Shown piece by piece: positions 4,602-20,773 of a DNA stretch of 20,773 nucleotides. The stretch lies in the IMG/VR virus record IMGVR_UViG_3300035698_004889, positions 1 to 20,773 of that record. The stretch is one strand, 5' to 3'. Source of the DNA: a virus. Under the pieces are notes generated by a model. The model was given only the letters and a program-made list of their open reading frames with translations. It did no database searches and was not told the DNA's origin. A program made the position numbers and the translations under genes. Numbering within the stretch: position 1 is the first letter of the stretch; each line of letters starts with the position of its first letter.

Positions 4602-5594
4602 ATGTTTAATAATATTGGTGCACAAGGTATTTTTACATCCGATGGTACAACAAAATTGCTTACTTTGAGACAGGGCGTTGATTGGATGTTTGTACGTAAC
4701 AGAACTGTTGCTACAAATCCACAAACATCGGCTAAAGCTGTAGAACATTGGTGGCAAGTTGGTTATCCAGCTGCAGCTAAAACTACAACTTTTAAGTCTA
4801 ATACTGCAAATGCTGCTAATTTAACGCAGTATCTTACATCCGCTGGATTTACCTATTTAGATTCTTCTGTTAATCTTGTTGGTCCATTAAATGCAACTGT
4901 TACAGCAGTTTCTAATGCTGCTATTCCAGTTGTATCTAATAGTGGAACAAATGGATTATCTGCTGGTGATGTGGTACGTATGGTTAATGTATCTACTGGC
5001 CAACAACTTGGTGGATTTGATTTCACTATTGGTCATAATACATTAACTACAGGTACATTCTCATTAGACTACATGTCTCAAATGGTATCAGCAACAACTG
5101 GTTCTTGGAGAAAAATTAACTTTGATCCTATGTTCTATCCTGTTGCTCGTTATATTACAAAAGTAGTTAAGGGTACAACGACTGTAATCACTTTCTCTGT
5201 AAAGCATGGTTATAATGTTGGAGAAGAACTAAGATTTAAAGTTCCTTCAGTTTATGGAATGACTGAATTAGATGGTTTAAGTGGAACAGTTACTGCTATT
5301 GATACAACTCTTGCTAGTGGAAATACTGTTACAGTAAATATTAACTCTTCTACATTTAGCGCATTCGCATTCCCATTGACAGCGGATACTCCGTTTAGTC
5401 CTGCAATGGCTGCTCCAGCTGGAGAAAATACAGCTGTTGCACTAGAATTGAATGTTCCTATACTATCGAGTGCATATGTTAATACTGGATTTATTGGAAT
5501 GTCACTTGCTGGTGGCGCTGGTAATCCAGGTGGTGCATCCAACGATATTATAGAGTGGGTCTCTGGTACATCATTTAGTGTTAATAACGAATAA
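4602..5594 (+). CDS. Virion structural protein with E1-FCCH-like domain
   Basis: ATG at 4602 follows AAGGAAAC, 12 bases after the capsid stop. The 330-residue protein is Thr/Ser/Val/Gly-rich and mostly beta. Residues about 182-255 contain TTVITFSVKHGYNVGEELRF, then VYGMTELDGLSGTVTAID and a closing STFSAFAFP. This is the pattern of the small beta domain that databases call the ubiquitin-activating E1 FCCH domain, which is frequent in phage virion proteins and has nothing to do with ubiquitin there. An earlier segment (about 120-155) has a similar shape. The C-terminus is Gly-rich. The place next to the capsid gene suggests a head decoration or minor capsid protein; tail tube is less likely. 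Confidence 0.65.
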   Translation: MFNNIGAQGIFTSDGTTKLLTLRQGVDWMFVRNRTVATNPQTSAKAVEHWWQVGYPAAAKTTTFKSNTANAANLTQYLTSAGFTYLDSSVNLVGPLNATVTAVSNAAIPVVSNSGTNGLSAGDVVRMVNVSTGQQLGGFDFTIGHNTLTTGTFSLDYMSQMVSATTGSWRKINFDPMFYPVARYITKVVKGTTTVITFSVKHGYNVGEELRFKVPSVYGMTELDGLSGTVTAIDTTLASGNTVTVNINSSTFSAFAFPLTADTPFSPAMAAPAGENTAVALELNVPILSSAYVNTGFIGMSLAGGAGNPGGASNDIIEWVSGTSFSVNNE

Positions 5595-5624: not shown

Positions 5625-5641
5625 CCTAATAAAGGAAAAAT

Positions 5642-6166
5642 ATGTCAGAATCAAGAAAAAAAACAGAATCAATCGTAGAAACTCCTAACACACAAGGTGT
5701 GAACATACCTCGTATGAAACCGTTAGATACGATCTTAGAAGCATCTAAAAAAGATAAGGATGCACCGGTAAAAGTTGATCCTTCGAAGACTGGACCACTT
5801 ACTGCTGAAGAAAAAGCTCAGCGTAATTTACTTTTAAAGCGTGAAGCAGAGTCAAAGATGGTAGATATTGTTTTTAGAAATCATGAAGTACAAGGCGGAA
5901 ACCTAGAGTTTGAGTATTTGTTCTATAAAGGCGATGAGCGTAAGAAATATGAATTACTTGATGGTCATCAGTATTCATTACCACTAGGTGTTGTTCGCCA
6001 TATTAATAATCTTGGTATTCCTAAGTATGAATACAAACAAGATAAGAATGGTCGTCCGTACTGTGCATTTAGCAGAGTACAAAAAAGATTTACTTGTGAA
6101 GATGTAAACTTTGTTGGTTATAATCAATATATAGATCATATAGATGGTTATAAGGCTGCTATATAG
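5642..6166 (+). CDS. Conserved virion-associated protein, unknown function
   Basis: ATG at 5642 follows AAAGGA. The 174-residue protein has a lysine-rich flexible first 65 residues and a folded second half with FEYLFYKGDERKKYELLDG, QYSLPLGVVRHINN and a Gln/Arg-rich end segment (AFSRVQKRFTCEDV). Proteins with a 'K-Y-x-L-x-D-G-x-x-Y-x-L-P-L-G-V-x-x-H-x-N' core occur near the capsid genes of N4-gp56-type phages, to my knowledge without a proven role. Two hairpin elements in tandem (5687-5718) write residues 16-26 (NTQGVNIPRMK), in the flexible part where an insertion would be tolerated. Confidence 0.65.
   Translation: MSESRKKTESIVETPNTQGVNIPRMKPLDTILEASKKDKDAPVKVDPSKTGPLTAEEKAQRNLLLKREAESKMVDIVFRNHEVQGGNLEFEYLFYKGDERKKYELLDGHQYSLPLGVVRHINNLGIPKYEYKQDKNGRPYCAFSRVQKRFTCEDVNFVGYNQYIDHIDGYKAAI
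5687..5718 (+). repeat. Two tandem hairpin elements with compensated stems
   Basis: AACACAC-AAG-GTGTGAA (5687-5703) shares AA with AACATAC-CTC-GTATGAA (5702-5718). The second copy has C to T in the left arm and the matching G to A in the right arm, so the stem is kept. Both are inside the reading frame of the 5642 gene. Confidence 0.8.
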
Positions 6167-6180
6167 CTTAAAGGATAGTA

Positions 6181-6534
6181 ATGAGTGTTGCCATAGAAAA
6201 TCCGATGTTCTTACCAGCAATGAGAGTTATAACTGTGATTACGAAAGCTAAGAAAGCGGTAGTTACAACATCATTTGCACATAATTATATAGATGGTCTT
6301 ATTATTAGGTTATTTATTCCTGAAGGATTTGGTATGTGGCAAGCGAATCAGTTGTTTAGTGCAATAACTGTATTATCACCAACAACCTTTCAGATGACAA
6401 TAGATACAACTAATTTTGATACGTTTGCTATATCAACCACATTTCCTTTTGATCAGCAGTCAGCACAGTGTACTCCAATTGCAGAACTAACTTCTCAATT
6501 AACAGGTGCTTTTAAAAATGTATTACCGAGGTAA
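6181..6534 (+). CDS. Small E1-FCCH-like virion protein
   Basis: ATG at 6181 follows AAAGGA, 14 bases after the previous stop. Nearly the whole 117-residue protein is one small beta domain: KKAVVTTSFAHNYIDGLIIR (about 23-42), then IPEGFGMWQANQLFSAITVL and SPTTFQMTIDTTNFDTFAI. This is the same E1-FCCH-like pattern as in the 4602 protein, here with the typical 'G-M-x-Q-x-N-x-x-F-x-I' and 'F-x-x-x-I-D-T-x-x-F-x-x-F' parts. It probably packs onto the head-tail joint or the capsid as a minor protein. The gene end is duplicated (6517-6546). Confidence 0.65.
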   Translation: MSVAIENPMFLPAMRVITVITKAKKAVVTTSFAHNYIDGLIIRLFIPEGFGMWQANQLFSAITVLSPTTFQMTIDTTNFDTFAISTTFPFDQQSAQCTPIAELTSQLTGAFKNVLPR

Positions 6535-14595: not shown

Positions 14596-16461
14596 ATGGC
14601 AAATTTTAATACAACAAAACGAGTTGCTTATGGTATGACGGAACCATTAGCGCCAATGGCTGTTGAGCCTATTGTTTCTCAACGTGCTCCCAAAGTGTCC
14701 GACCTTTCAGAACTTGGAACAATTTGGATCAATCAAGCTACAGATGATTACTTTATTTTAACAAGCATAACTGCTGGCGATGCGATTTGGACAACAGCTG
14801 CAGCTGCTGGTGCTAGTGTAGCTGCCTTAACCATTACTGGTGGAGCTGGTGATGTATTAATTGTTAATGCTGGTGGTGATACTGATCTTGGTGGTACCCT
14901 CGATGTCGCTGGAAATACAGTGCTTGCTGGTAATTTAACAGTAACTGGTGCTACCATTATTAATGGTGACTTTGATATTTCTTCAGCGTCAGCTCTATCA
15001 TTTAGTAGTACTTCTAACACTGATCCTGCATTATCATTTACGACTAATGGTGGCACGACTGAAACTATGATTCTTACGGTTACTCAGGGTACGGCTGTTG
15101 ATGCGTTAAACCTTGTTGCAACTGCTGGTGGCATTCAAATTGAAACTACTAATTCAACGGCTGATGCATCTGTTAATTTAATTGCTCATGCTGGTGGTGT
15201 TAAATTTGATGCTGTTAAAAATTCTGTATGGAATGTAGTAGGTGCATCAGAAGATTTACAATTGAATGCTACTGGTGGTTCTATTTCAATTGCTGCTACT
15301 GAAGCTGCAGCTGATGCGGTAAATATTGCAACTGCTTCTGGTGGAATTATTGCTACATCTGGTATTGATGCTGCTGATGCAATTTATTTACATGCTAATG
15401 GGGGAACGTCAGAAAAAATTAGACTTCATGCAGATCAAGGTACTGGAGTTGACAGCATAGAGTTAGAGTCAGATGTTGGTGGTATTACATTAACTTCTGG
15501 TCTTGCAACTGATGATGCAATTAATTTATCAGCATCTGCTGGTGGTGTTGACATTGATGGTGCTCTTCAAGTTAATATTGCCTCTGCAGATGCTGCTGCT
15601 GATGCAATTGTACTTAGTGCTTCTGCTGGTGGTATTGATATTACGGCAGCTGGCGGTGCAGCATTTGGAGATATTGATATATCTACTGATGGAACTGTAA
15701 CTGTTACCTCAACTGAAGATGTAGCCGGTGCTGTATCCTTAACAGCTAATGGTGGAACGTCAGAAACTGTCGCTATCTTGGCGTCACAAGGTACTGGAGT
15801 TGGTTCTATTAATTTAAACTCTATTGCTGGTGGTATTACCATTGCAGCTGCTCTTGCTTCTGATGATGCTATTAATTTATCAGCATCTTCTGGTGGTGTA
15901 GATATTGATGGAGCTCTTCAAGTTAATATAGCTTCTTCTGAAAACGCTGAAGATGCTGTATCTATTAATGCTAGTGCTGGTGGTATTGATATTGTAGCAG
16001 CAGGCGGTGCGGCAGAAGATATAGATATATCTAATGGCTTAGGTTCTGTAAATATTGATGCAGGTGAAGCTATAGCAGATGCTATTACTATTGCTGCTTC
16101 AAGTGGTGGAGTAACAGTTACTTCTGGTATTGATGCTGCTGATTCTATCTACTTACATGCTGATGCAGGAACATCTGAAAAAATTAGAATTCATGCAGAT
16201 CAAGGTACTGGTCAAGACAGCCTAGAATTAGAATCAGATGCTGGTGGTATTACATTAAAATCACCTGCAGCTAATGGCATTACGATCGATAATGGCACCC
16301 AATCGCCTCGAATCATGTGCGGAACAGGCTCGCCGAATGGAGCTTTAACAGCGCCTCAGGGTAGTATTTTCCTTAATGTAGCAGGCAGTAGTACAAGTAC
16401 TCGCATGTATGTAAATAGTGATGGTTCTACTGCGTGGGTGGCATTTACTACGGCTTCGTAG
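14596..16461 (+). CDS. Long repeat-rich fibre protein
   Basis: ATG at 14596 has AAGGA ten bases before it; the frame is open further upstream but without a ribosome site. The 621-residue product opens with a base-attachment-like part (KVSDLSELGTIWINQATDDY, about 35-55; 'G-T-hydrophobic-W-hydrophobic' is common at the start of phage fibre modules). Residues about 180-560 are many beta repeats of the type ADAI-x-hydrophobic-x-A-S-A-G-G-hydrophobic-x-hydrophobic, as in a beta-helix. Two larger units recur: SIYLHA...SEKIR-HADQGTG-DS-ELESD-GGITL (from about 15367 and 16132) and INLSAS-GGVDIDGALQVNI (from about 15521 and 15871). The last 45 residues (ALTAPQGSIFLNVAGSSTST and RMYVNSDGSTAWVAF) are a C-terminal cap seen in many phage fibres. 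It is poor in Cys and Trp, as expected for a stable trimeric fibre. Confidence 0.75.
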   Translation: MANFNTTKRVAYGMTEPLAPMAVEPIVSQRAPKVSDLSELGTIWINQATDDYFILTSITAGDAIWTTAAAAGASVAALTITGGAGDVLIVNAGGDTDLGGTLDVAGNTVLAGNLTVTGATIINGDFDISSASALSFSSTSNTDPALSFTTNGGTTETMILTVTQGTAVDALNLVATAGGIQIETTNSTADASVNLIAHAGGVKFDAVKNSVWNVVGASEDLQLNATGGSISIAATEAAADAVNIATASGGIIATSGIDAADAIYLHANGGTSEKIRLHADQGTGVDSIELESDVGGITLTSGLATDDAINLSASAGGVDIDGALQVNIASADAAADAIVLSASAGGIDITAAGGAAFGDIDISTDGTVTVTSTEDVAGAVSLTANGGTSETVAILASQGTGVGSINLNSIAGGITIAAALASDDAINLSASSGGVDIDGALQVNIASSENAEDAVSINASAGGIDIVAAGGAAEDIDISNGLGSVNIDAGEAIADAITIAASSGGVTVTSGIDAADSIYLHADAGTSEKIRIHADQGTGQDSLELESDAGGITLKSPAANGITIDNGTQSPRIMCGTGSPNGALTAPQGSIFLNVAGSSTSTRMYVNSDGSTAWVAFTTAS

Positions 16462-16490
16462 CAGTTAGACTCTTAGACATTATTAAAAAA

Positions 16491-16549
16491 ATGAGTATCC
16501 TTATGAATGATAAAAATAGAACAAATTATAAACTCATAAGGATACTCAT
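16491..16549 (+). promoter_or_regulatory. 16-bp hairpin hiding the ribosome site and start of the HNH gene
   Basis: ATGAGTATCCTTATGA (16491-16506) is the exact reverse complement of 16534-16549, with a 27-base loop. The right arm contains AAGGA (16538-16542) and the first two bases of the ATG (16548). Read-through RNA from the fibre gene would fold and block translation. A TATAAA box in the loop (16527-16532) could start a shorter RNA without the left arm. T4 I-TevI is controlled in just this way. Confidence 0.7.
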
Positions 16550-17372
16550 GTCTAAACCGACAAAGAATTGTATCATGTGTAACAAAGAATATAAAACTTA
16601 TGATATATCTTCTAAGTTTTGCTCGTCAAAATGTTATTTTGAATCAAAAAGGTCCTTTGTAGATTGTGCTCAATGTAATAAAAAAATTATAGTCATTGCA
16701 TCTCGTTCTAGTCATTTCTTATTTTGTTCTAATGCTTGTTATTATGAATCAATGAAGGTAGATAGACTTTATAAAAACTGTATTAAGTGTGGTGTGAAAT
16801 ATGCATTACGAAGAGACCATATTAAAAGATCTAAGTTTTGTAGTAAGTCTTGTCAGTGTTCTTGGATGGGACTTAAAGCTACAAAAAATATTCATGAAAA
16901 ATGGGAACAAGAAACTCCAGAAGAAACTAAACAAAAAATTAAAGAATCATTTGAGCGTTTTTTTGAAAAAGGAGATGGATGCTGGATTTGGACTGGTGGA
17001 AATAGAGGAAAGCTTGGCTATGGAGCTTTTGCATTTAGAATTAGAAAGCCTCTAATTGCTCATAGAGTGAGCTATGAACTTTATAATGGTGAAATTCCTA
17101 AAGGAAAAATCATAATGCACACTTGTGACAATCCGCCTTGCGTGAATCCAACTCATTTAAAAGTCGGTACTCATTTAGAAAACGCAAGAGATAAAATTTT
17201 AAAAGGACGATGTAAAATCAATAAGCTTTCAGTTGAAAATGTAAAAGAAATAAAGAAATTACTTAGAATTGGAGTAAGGAATGATCGAATTGCTCAAGAT
17301 TTTGGAGTGTCTTCAAGTGCAGTGTCTCTTATTAAGTTAGGAAAGACATGGAGCTGGTTAAGCATAGATTAA
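16548..17372 (+). CDS. HNH homing endonuclease with zinc-finger N-terminus
   Basis: ATG at 16548 follows AAGGA; longer in-frame starts lack a ribosome site. The 274-residue protein has three Cys modules of the form C-x2-C...C-x3-C (Cys 8/11/25/29, 40/43/60/64, 78/81/98/102), probably zinc fingers for DNA binding. The nuclease domain (about 145-215) starts GCWIWTG and has the HNH_3-type core AHR...HTCDNPPCVNPTHL with His172, His191, Asn200 and His203; Cys193 and Cys198 are the usual structural pair. A C-terminal helix-turn-helix (about 227-270, VRNDRIAQDFGVSSSAVSLI) gives further sequence recognition. Such enzymes cut phage genomes lacking the gene and spread by repair. It stands free between fibre genes, with no sign of an intron or intein around it. 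Translation is probably limited by the hairpin at 16491-16549. Confidence 0.9.
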   Translation: MSKPTKNCIMCNKEYKTYDISSKFCSSKCYFESKRSFVDCAQCNKKIIVIASRSSHFLFCSNACYYESMKVDRLYKNCIKCGVKYALRRDHIKRSKFCSKSCQCSWMGLKATKNIHEKWEQETPEETKQKIKESFERFFEKGDGCWIWTGGNRGKLGYGAFAFRIRKPLIAHRVSYELYNGEIPKGKIIMHTCDNPPCVNPTHLKVGTHLENARDKILKGRCKINKLSVENVKEIKKLLRIGVRNDRIAQDFGVSSSAVSLIKLGKTWSWLSID

Positions 17373-17396: not shown

Positions 17397-17430
17397 TAGT
17401 AGGCTTGCTCATGAGTGGGTAAGCCTATTA
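17397..17430 (+). terminator. Hairpin after the HNH gene, possible terminator
   Basis: TAGTAGGCTTGCTCA (17397-17411) pairs with the stretch up to 17430 in a 15-bp stem with three G-T wobbles and a 4-base loop. It lies 25 bases after the HNH stop and is followed by an AT-rich stretch (TAAAATAAATATTT) rather than a pure T run, so termination would be partial. Confidence 0.5.
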
Positions 17431-18328: not shown

Positions 18329-20773
18329 ATGGCATATAATGCTTTAACCGACGATATTCAGTCAACTGCTGTTCATTCATGGAATGGTTCTATTATAGAA
18401 TCATCAGCCGTCACTGTAACATCTGACGGTGCAGTAATAACGTTTTCAGTTCAAAAAGCTGGCGGTGGTAATTTAACAGTTGTCTTTTCTGATGGATTTG
18501 ACGCATGGGTAACCGCTCCGGATACTATTGCTCTAACTGCTGGATCAGATGTATCTCCTCAGATTAATTATGTTTACTATTTGAAGTCTACCAAGGCTCT
18601 TACTATTAGTACTTCAGCATTCCCGACAGCGGAACATGCTCCACTTGCTACTGTATTATGTCAAAGTGCTGCTTCACTAGCAACACAGGGAGCATATAAA
18701 GTTCATGCATGGACAGATCATACAGTTACGGATAATGATCAAGGTCATATTGGTGATCTTAATGCATGGATTCGTAATCAAAATGCATCGTGGGAATCTG
18801 GCGTTGGTCAAACATTAACTATTACTCCTAATGGTGGAGCTCCTGATAATGTTATATTTACCAGTGCTACTGGAGTAGTATTGCAATTGCACACTCATAC
18901 ATTCCCAGCATTTTCAGGAACTCCAGATGTCTATACTATTAATGACTCTGTAACTCCATATAATATAGTTACAGATTTAAATGCTCTTCTTACTGATTCT
19001 ACTGGTGCGTCAATGACAGAAAGATATTTTTCTCTTGTGATGTGGGGTGTTGTAAGTGAGGCTACTGGAGATTGTAAGCTTTTTGTTAATCTTCCTAGTG
19101 GAAGTTATAATAGTTCAGCTAATTTAATTGCTGATCCAAGTAGATATTCTAATTATACTATTCCGGCTAATTTTAGAGGAACAGGGTTTTTAATTGCTAA
19201 TATCCAACTCAGACATCAAAATGCTGCAAGTGGAACATGGACTGAGATTGACTTAGTTGATCTTCGTGGAACATTTCCATCTATTATTGCTGGTGGAGGA
19301 GGAATAACAACTCTTGCTGGTGATAGTGGTTCTGCTACTGGATCAACTGTTACTTTAACTGGTGGTACTTCTGGTTTAGTATTTACTGGTGCTACGTCAA
19401 CGGTTACTGCAACCGCTGATTTTCTATCATTGCCAGCAACTACAGCTACTAATGGTCAAGTTCTAATTAATAGTGTTCCGGCTTTACATACTTTTCCCGG
19501 AACAGGGGCTTTTGTTGGTGGTGCTGGTAATCTTACTCATTCAGGAACATTTAATTGTGGAATGGGGTTTGGCGCTCTTGCTGCTGTAACGAATGGTCAA
19601 TTTAATTTGGGTATTGGAGGAGGGGCTCTAAAAGCGCTAACTTCAGGTTCTGGAAATGCTGCTATGGGTGTGGGCTCACTTGAGTTTTTGGGTACTGGTT
19701 CTTCTAATTTATGTGTTGGACAGAATTCAGGGGCAAATCTTACTTTAACTGATTCAAGCAATATCTTCTTTAATGCTGGTGGTATAGCTGGGGATAATAA
19801 TACTATTCGCCTTGGGGCTGGTACTGGATCAGGTGTTGGACAAATTAATAAAGCATATGTTCATGGTATTGATGGCGTAGATGTTGGAAATGTAGCCAAA
19901 GTAGTTACAATGGCCAGTGATCAACTAGGTACGGCTACATTAACGGCTGGTACAGGCGTAACAATTACACCAACTGCTAATACGATTACTATTGATTCTA
20001 CTGGCAGTGGTATAGTAACTCTTGCTGGTGATAGTGGTTCGGCTACTGGATCAACTGTTACTTTAACTGGTGGTACTTCTGGTTTAGTATTTACTGGTGC
20101 TACGTCAACGGTTACTGCAACCGCTGATTTTCTATCATTGCCAGCAACTACTGCCACTAATGGTCAAGTTCTAATTAATAGTGTTCCGGCTTTACATACT
20201 TTTCCCGGAACAGGGGCTTTTGTTGGTGGTGCTGGTAATCTTACTCATTCAGGAATATTTAATTGTGGATTCGGTTCTATTGCCCTTGCTGCTCTGACAA
20301 CAGGTCAATTCAATATGGGTATTGGAGCGGGAGCTCTTGGTGCTATTACTACTAGTAGTGGAAATGTTGCTATTGGTGTTGGTTCTCTACAATTTATGAC
20401 TTCTGGCGGTGAGAATGTGGCTATAGGGCAAAATACACTATTCGATGCTACTGCTAGTACGGGAAATGTTGCTCTTGGTAAAGAATCATTGGCGAATATT
20501 ATTACGGGTACCTATAATAGCTGCGTAGGTTGGGGTGCTGGATTTGATCTTACTTTGGCTGATTCCAGTAATGTGTTATTGAATCATTTTGGTGTTGCTG
20601 GCGATAGTAATACATTACGTATTGGAGCTGCAACCGGAACGGGAACTCAACAGATTAATAAATCATTTATTCATGGTGTTCGTGGAATAACAACTGTTAA
20701 TGCAGATGCTGTTGCTGTATTGGTTGATAGTGCTGGACAGTTTGGAACGGTATCTTCATCTATTCGATATAAA
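18329..20773 (+). CDS. Long tail fibre with YadA-like repeats and start of an S74 chaperone, partial
   Basis: ATG at 18329 follows AAGGA, and the frame stays open for 815 codons to the window end, so the gene continues beyond it. Residues 1-320 are a fibre-base and shaft part, with a YKVHAWTDHTVTDNDQGHIGD segment shortened here as HAWTDHTVTDNDQGHIGD (about 124-141). A module of 236 residues then occurs twice (from about 327 and 563); its first 84 residues are almost identical, and its later part has G-N-x-A-I-G-x-x-S/A-L units (YadA-head-like left-handed coil), with more units in the second copy. The last residues, VLVDSAGQFGTVSSSIRYK, are the usual entry into a peptidase S74 (endosialidase-type) intramolecular chaperone, which folds the trimer and cuts itself off at a conserved Ser. 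It probably recognises the host surface. Confidence 0.85.
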   Translation, partial: MAYNALTDDIQSTAVHSWNGSIIESSAVTVTSDGAVITFSVQKAGGGNLTVVFSDGFDAWVTAPDTIALTAGSDVSPQINYVYYLKSTKALTISTSAFPTAEHAPLATVLCQSAASLATQGAYKVHAWTDHTVTDNDQGHIGDLNAWIRNQNASWESGVGQTLTITPNGGAPDNVIFTSATGVVLQLHTHTFPAFSGTPDVYTINDSVTPYNIVTDLNALLTDSTGASMTERYFSLVMWGVVSEATGDCKLFVNLPSGSYNSSANLIADPSRYSNYTIPANFRGTGFLIANIQLRHQNAASGTWTEIDLVDLRGTFPSIIAGGGGITTLAGDSGSATGSTVTLTGGTSGLVFTGATSTVTATADFLSLPATTATNGQVLINSVPALHTFPGTGAFVGGAGNLTHSGTFNCGMGFGALAAVTNGQFNLGIGGGALKALTSGSGNAAMGVGSLEFLGTGSSNLCVGQNSGANLTLTDSSNIFFNAGGIAGDNNTIRLGAGTGSGVGQINKAYVHGIDGVDVGNVAKVVTMASDQLGTATLTAGTGVTITPTANTITIDSTGSGIVTLAGDSGSATGSTVTLTGGTSGLVFTGATSTVTATADFLSLPATTATNGQVLINSVPALHTFPGTGAFVGGAGNLTHSGIFNCGFGSIALAALTTGQFNMGIGAGALGAITTSSGNVAIGVGSLQFMTSGGENVAIGQNTLFDATASTGNVALGKESLANIITGTYNSCVGWGAGFDLTLADSSNVLLNHFGVAGDSNTLRIGAATGTGTQQINKSFIHGVRGITTVNADAVAVLVDSAGQFGTVSSSIRYK
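19309..19561 (+). repeat. 253-bp intragenic direct repeat, copy 1
   Basis: Matches 20017-20269 with four mismatches by eye (three silent or nearly so), in frame, 708 bases apart. The sequence beyond 19561 diverges at once at the DNA level while the protein stays similar. Confidence 0.85.
20017..20269 (+). repeat. 253-bp intragenic direct repeat, copy 2
   Basis: Second copy of the repeat at 19309-19561. The abrupt change from about 98 percent identity to divergent sequence at both copies' right ends suggests gene conversion or a recent module exchange rather than an old duplication. Confidence 0.85.

Follow-up and report, generated by a model that had tools for sequence, protein, structure and literature searches.

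A start-codon hairpin that probably insulates a free-standing phage HNH gene from read-through of the fibre gene upstream

The window analysed here is a full virus record of 20,773 bases (IMGVR_UViG_3300035698_004889). On its plus strand, an open reading frame for a tail-fibre-like protein (14596–16461), with relatives in the loci L011, L094, L095 and L252, is followed by a free-standing HNH_3 gene (16548–17372). The 274-residue product of the latter carries Cys-rich N-terminal repeats and the HNH residues H191, N200 and H203; it matches PF13392 above the cut-off in a Pfam profile search (E 7.9e-13) and PHROG 1872 (E 3e-32), so that its HNH motif is intact, and it has protein relatives at 46–52% identity. 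The capsid protein of the window matches PHROG 1357 and falls below the cut-off for the Pfam family Phage_capsid_4; together with the P22-like portal of the relative L011, this does not sustain the earlier naming of the virus as an N4-gp56-type phage. Compared with deposited phages, the locus showed no DNA similarity or only chance matches, and a sequence search against the PDB gave no match.

Between the two genes, beginning 30 nt past the fibre stop codon, lies a plus-strand hairpin whose left arm (16491–16506, 16 nt) is 100% complementary to the right arm (16534–16549), the two being separated by a loop of 27 nt (16507–16533) with the hexamer TATAAA at 16527–16532. The right arm holds the Shine-Dalgarno (SD) sequence AAGGA (16538–16542) and two bases of the HNH start codon ATG (16548–16550), the A and T being paired and the G standing one base past the arm. 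The preliminary description of a perfect 16-bp inverted repeat with the ribosome site and start codon in its right arm is thus confirmed. This repeat is the longest perfect one in the window, the next being 13 bp, and in 30 Markov-simulated windows the maximum was 13 bp, with a mean of 0.13 repeats of at least 12 bp. The predicted RNA fold has an energy of -24.2 kcal/mol against -9.4 ± 2.8 kcal/mol for shuffled sequences (z -5.3; 0 of 200 equally stable), and the paired probability of the HNH SD plus start, 0.98, is the highest among 18 starts of the window. The left arm begins with an ATG (16491) in frame with the HNH gene and without an SD. The term riboswitch-like, used previously, does not apply to this single stem-loop, which has no aptamer and for which an Rfam search at E ≤ 5 gave nothing credible, the only hits being to eukaryotic models, far below their cut-offs and at chance level. 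A search of viral contigs for the exact hairpin sequence did not find it. Further out, TTAGACAT (16473–16480) can pair with ATGTCTAA (16548–16555) across a 10-nt A-rich bulge, which looks as though the left arm had arisen as an inverted copy of the first HNH codons and had later been interrupted.

The predicted cost of opening the HNH SD and start codon is 22.1 kcal/mol on RNA reading through from the fibre gene, compared with 6.2 kcal/mol on RNA that starts in the loop, where some other pairing of the ribosome-binding site (RBS) is still predicted. When the RNA 5' end is moved from 16491 to 16501, the cost drops from 21.6 to 6.4 kcal/mol. Twelve other genes of the window have costs of 3.3–8.4 kcal/mol, a range that includes the loop-start HNH RNA, and over 21 cases the mean is 19.0 kcal/mol for read-through and 4.9 kcal/mol for the gene's own start. 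As far as folding predictions go, the values of about 22 and 6 kcal/mol are in agreement with the silencing on long fibre-gene RNA proposed earlier, through RBS masking, and with release when the RNA starts inside the hairpin.

The hairpin recurs at the HNH genes of relatives. The two closest, L094 (52% identity in alignment) and L095 (47%; L171 is the same sequence at that locus), both lie directly behind a fibre gene, as does a fourth HNH copy, L252, in a contig that belongs to the same capsid family, the fibre gene being 64–88 nt upstream in these three loci. Each carries, over its own SD and start, a 17-bp stem that is free of mismatches and includes one or two G-U pairs; the loops are of 6 nt (L094), 12 nt (L095) and 16 nt (L252). 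In this group, which is limited to four loci with the window, 15 pair columns are present in at least three of the copies; 14 of them vary, and all 14 have changed on both sides, so that the structure is conserved by compensation. The syntenic relative L011 (45% identity in the tail protein) has no HNH_3 gene anywhere in its 36.9 kb, and other small genes occupy the corresponding place of this related allele. The capsid protein alone as a query found no relative; with L011 added to the query, 515 relatives were found, and an HNH relative was present in only 9 of the 50 contigs searched.

The best promoter pair of the region is TAGACA-16-TATCCT (16474–16501, 8.1 bits), composed of a candidate -35 box at 16474–16479 and a candidate -10 box at 16496–16501, at offset 5 in the left arm, both on the plus strand. 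Transcription is predicted to start 7 nt past the -10 box, at about 16508–16509 in the loop. Taken alone this promoter is modest, with a 9/12 match to sigma70, a weak -10 and a hairpin-relative shuffle p of 0.032, and it escapes a search limited to starts from -30 to -14 because the loop is long; the promoter weights used are approximations to E. coli values. The candidate -10 starts 3–6 nt into the left arm in all four copies (L252 has TAGACA-17-TAGAAT).

To place the window in a broader frame, HNH genes were first collected regardless of hairpins, before any hairpin-guided search. In this first set, a gapless masking stem score of at least 12 was reached by 11 of 121 HNH genes against 1 of 330 other genes of the same loci. 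A scan seeded with hairpin-bearing genes was then added and redundancy removed, giving a final set of 158 HNH_3 genes, of which 18 have gapless masking stems against 0.17 expected from shuffles; only 6 were found when A-C took the place of G-U as the wobble pair. Since the gapless metric misses bulged stems, opening energies were used as well, a gene being counted as masked when its cost drops by at least 10 kcal/mol on truncation (ddG ≥ 10). By this measure 26 of the 158 HNH_3 genes from viral contigs are masked, compared with 2 of 328 other genes (Fisher 9e-12), a share of 16% that is not an estimate of prevalence because the last viral scan was hairpin-seeded. The start codons of these genes were called automatically and some are surely wrong. 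The 26 genes fall into 11 protein clusters at 50% identity. Their stems contain, at non-Watson-Crick positions, 32 G-U against 5 A-C pairs when read as sense RNA (p=7e-6), as expected under selection on the sense RNA. As a positive control, 76 T4 genes were scored by the same metric, and segB, I-TevI, e and 49 were among the top six. In 12 deposited phages, the majority of HNH genes are unmasked and either overlap the adjacent genes or directly adjoin them. Two deposited genomes showed a resemblance to the window: podovirus ctkAd229 (MW202691.1; L350, ~26226), with an HNH gene behind a P22-type coat gene, the promoter TTGCAC-18-TATAAT and a cost going from 19.7 to 4.0 kcal/mol, is a good fit, and Vibrio phage 1.232.O (MG592596.1; L370, ~7992), which is cultured on the host Vibrio tasmaniensis and has an HNH gene downstream of a capsid gene, is a partial one; their hairpins have a TATAAT or TGnTATTAT box in the left arm.

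Masking is coupled to promoters. A sigma70-like promoter with its start inside the hairpin was found at p<0.05 against shuffles in 17 of 23 hairpins (combined 8e-17), compared with 1 of 23 for the antisense control (combined 0.52), and in 20 of the 23 the -10 box has an offset between -3 and +8 from the left arm. A sigma70-like promoter is present, at the hairpin, in 20/26 masked HNH genes, compared with 27/132 unmasked HNH and 20/328 other genes (masked against unmasked, 6e-8); six of the 26 masked HNH genes are without a significant promoter. Examples are TTGATG-17-TATAAT (L118), TTGACT-18-TATAGT (L008) and TTGTCT-18-TGnTACACT (L267). The -10 is typically in the left arm, which would put the RNA start inside the loop or close to it. 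A promoter of the gene's own with a left-arm -10 is therefore statistically established for the group, and for the window copy it has moderate support. Masking is also coupled to virion genes: the upstream neighbour is a major capsid gene (PHROG 283 or 1328) in 17 of 22 masked HNH genes against 16 of 84 unmasked ones, and a fibre gene in the group of the window. Among unmasked HNH genes, overlap with the stop codon of the preceding gene is frequent; translation is coupled there and insulation would be pointless. One HNH family behind the PHROG 283 major capsid gene (L184, L186, L262, L263, L264, L265, L266, L267, L268 and L008) largely shares the box TGnTAYACT, located at the 5' edge of the hairpin some 60 nt before the HNH start, and the arms below this box vary in a compensating way.

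Taken together, we consider it probable that the role of the hairpin is to insulate a free-standing HNH homing-endonuclease gene, whose translation would be blocked on fibre read-through and whose product would be made from its own host-type promoter. The HNH gene would have been inserted immediately behind a strongly expressed virion gene, so that fibre-gene transcripts (14596–16461) would run on into it. On such RNA the left arm would fold onto the SD and start codon and prevent translation. The gene's own promoter, with its -35 upstream of the hairpin and its -10 in the left arm, would give RNA starting in the loop, which would lack the left arm and be translatable. The putative homing protein would thereby be kept off an abundant, presumably late, virion mRNA and be made only from its own promoter.

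The preliminary description placed the promoter at the TATAAA of the loop, by analogy with the internal late promoter used by T4 homing endonuclease precedents (PMC2988022). The hexamer is indeed where it was reported, but it makes a poor promoter, with 2.4 bits against 8.1 for TAGACA/TATCCT, no -35 and a start at about 16539 that would cut into the SD (a start at 16538–16540 would also free the RBS, at this expense). No such box occurs in the loops of L094, L095 and L252. For a T4-style late promoter, no TATAAATA box is in the right place, TATAAACT at 16527 matching only 6 of 8 positions of the T4 box with its start again inside the SD, and the scanned parts of the relative showed no T4-type late factor. 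Opening by a loop promoter of this kind is thus very unlikely. A constitutive dampener, with HNH translation always low, no internal start, and rare breathing or RNA processing yielding the needed protein, would fit the weak window promoter and the six masked genes that lack a significant one; we hold it to be unlikely in view of the excess of promoters at masked over unmasked HNH genes and of the consistent position of the -10 at the 5' end of the left arm.

That the hairpin serves instead as a terminator, as a 3'-end stabiliser of the fibre mRNA or as an RNase III site, overlapping the HNH start by chance, might be suggested by its short distance from the fibre stop codon and by the seven T (TTTTTTT) after the stem on the minus strand. 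On the plus strand, GTCTAAACC follows the stem without a T run and no intrinsic terminator was found there by the scan; the minus strand has no gene that could end at it, an arm covers the SD and start in all four copies, and control genes of the same loci have no such hairpin, which makes this explanation highly improbable. A minus-strand reading, with TAGACA-18-TATAAT at 16554–16525 (11/12 sigma70-like) and the T run after the stem, was also rejected as the main account; it would serve no gene, and across the 23 hairpins the antisense promoter signal does not exceed chance. Finally, a palindrome acting at the DNA level, as an operator or endonuclease binding site, has a parallel in I-TevI, whose late promoter overlaps an operator through which the enzyme represses its own gene (PMC2988022), and perfect palindromes can be protein sites; but the arm sequences are unrelated among the relatives and the deviations in the 26 masked stems are G-U rather than A-C in the sense strand, so that this explanation is hardly credible.

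The insulating hairpin can be compared with known systems. I-TevI, segB, e and 49 of T4 have been described as hairpin-regulated (PMC2988022, PMC3014915). As predicted for the window, the RBS and start codon of I-TevI (and of I-TevII and I-TevIII) are sequestered on upstream-initiated RNA, and the RNA from their own promoter lacks the left arm (PMC2988022), as RNA from the candidate promoter of the window would; this likeness was claimed earlier, and our stem metric recovered I-TevI. In contrast, I-TevI and I-TevII are GIY-YIG enzymes and all three genes lie inside group I introns with a T4 late promoter, whereas the window gene is a free-standing HNH gene with a candidate sigma70-like one. 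Like the window gene, segB of T4 and mobE of Aeromonas phage Aeh1 are free-standing homing endonuclease genes with an RBS-sequestering hairpin, mobE being an HNH gene in which the effect of the hairpin has been demonstrated (PMC2988022, PMC3014915); these belong to T-even phages, have T4-type promoters and lie beside tRNA or nrd genes, whereas the genes found here lie beside capsid or fibre genes in non-T4 phages. The RBS hairpins of T4 e, soc and 49 also form only on longer upstream-initiated RNA, but these are ordinary phage genes with T4 late promoters and the window gene is of the mobile-element type. The case is independent of T4, as had been supposed. In T4 the masked RNAs are early or middle and the gene's own promoter is late (PMC2988022), so that I-TevI is masked early and active late. 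As the neighbours here are virion genes, one would expect late RNA to be masked and the gene's own promoter to be host-type, the reverse of the T4 order.

For the capsid- and fibre-adjacent homing genes of non-T4 phages as a whole, we see about an even chance that a sigma70 promoter whose -10 serves at the same time as the left arm of a hairpin masking the RBS has evolved repeatedly, with T4 timing inverted: silent on abundant late virion RNA, and active from a host-type promoter, perhaps as early as the first minutes of infection. No description of a masking hairpin with an internal promoter outside T4-like phages was found in the open-access literature. HNH genes outside T4, belonging to at least 11 protein clusters at 50% identity, now show the same logic; their promoters are of the host type, and they immediately follow major capsid or fibre genes, where late transcription is strongest. 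This offers a rule, open to test, on how a selfish gene can persist next to an essential gene with high expression, and the combination of hairpin and promoter provides a sequence signature for finding such elements. It also raises the question of whether HNH expression is early, from a host-type promoter, or late; early expression, if true, could let a competitor genome be cut.

Several minor observations concern the surroundings of the gene. The fibre proteins adjacent to HNH genes have in common a C-terminal motif, GS[IL][FY]LxxxGSSTSTR.Y.N (window 16250–16461, L094 3330–3446, L252 1300–1433, L095 4780–4918), which the fibre of L011, without an HNH gene, lacks. The L094 and L252 fibres are 83% identical over their last 24 residues and diverged elsewhere, a pattern that suggests co-conversion of the fibre end during homing. 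A strong hairpin predicted 3' of the HNH stop codon (17397–17430, plus strand) could be the 3' end of a fibre-HNH unit; an unrelated strong hairpin follows the HNH stop at the matching place in L095 (~5635–5675), and in L011 a strong hairpin stands directly 3' of the fibre stop (~19950–19970). The HNH gene may have separated the fibre gene from its 3' hairpin on insertion, which would force read-through into HNH. Elsewhere in the window, a perfect, loopless 24-bp palindrome, GTGCAGGTCAAC/GTTGACCTGCAC, lies at 1120–1143, outside the main genes. The products of the genes at 4602–5594 and 6181–6534 each match one and the same pair of places in L011, and so have a domain in common, indicating a duplicated virion gene.
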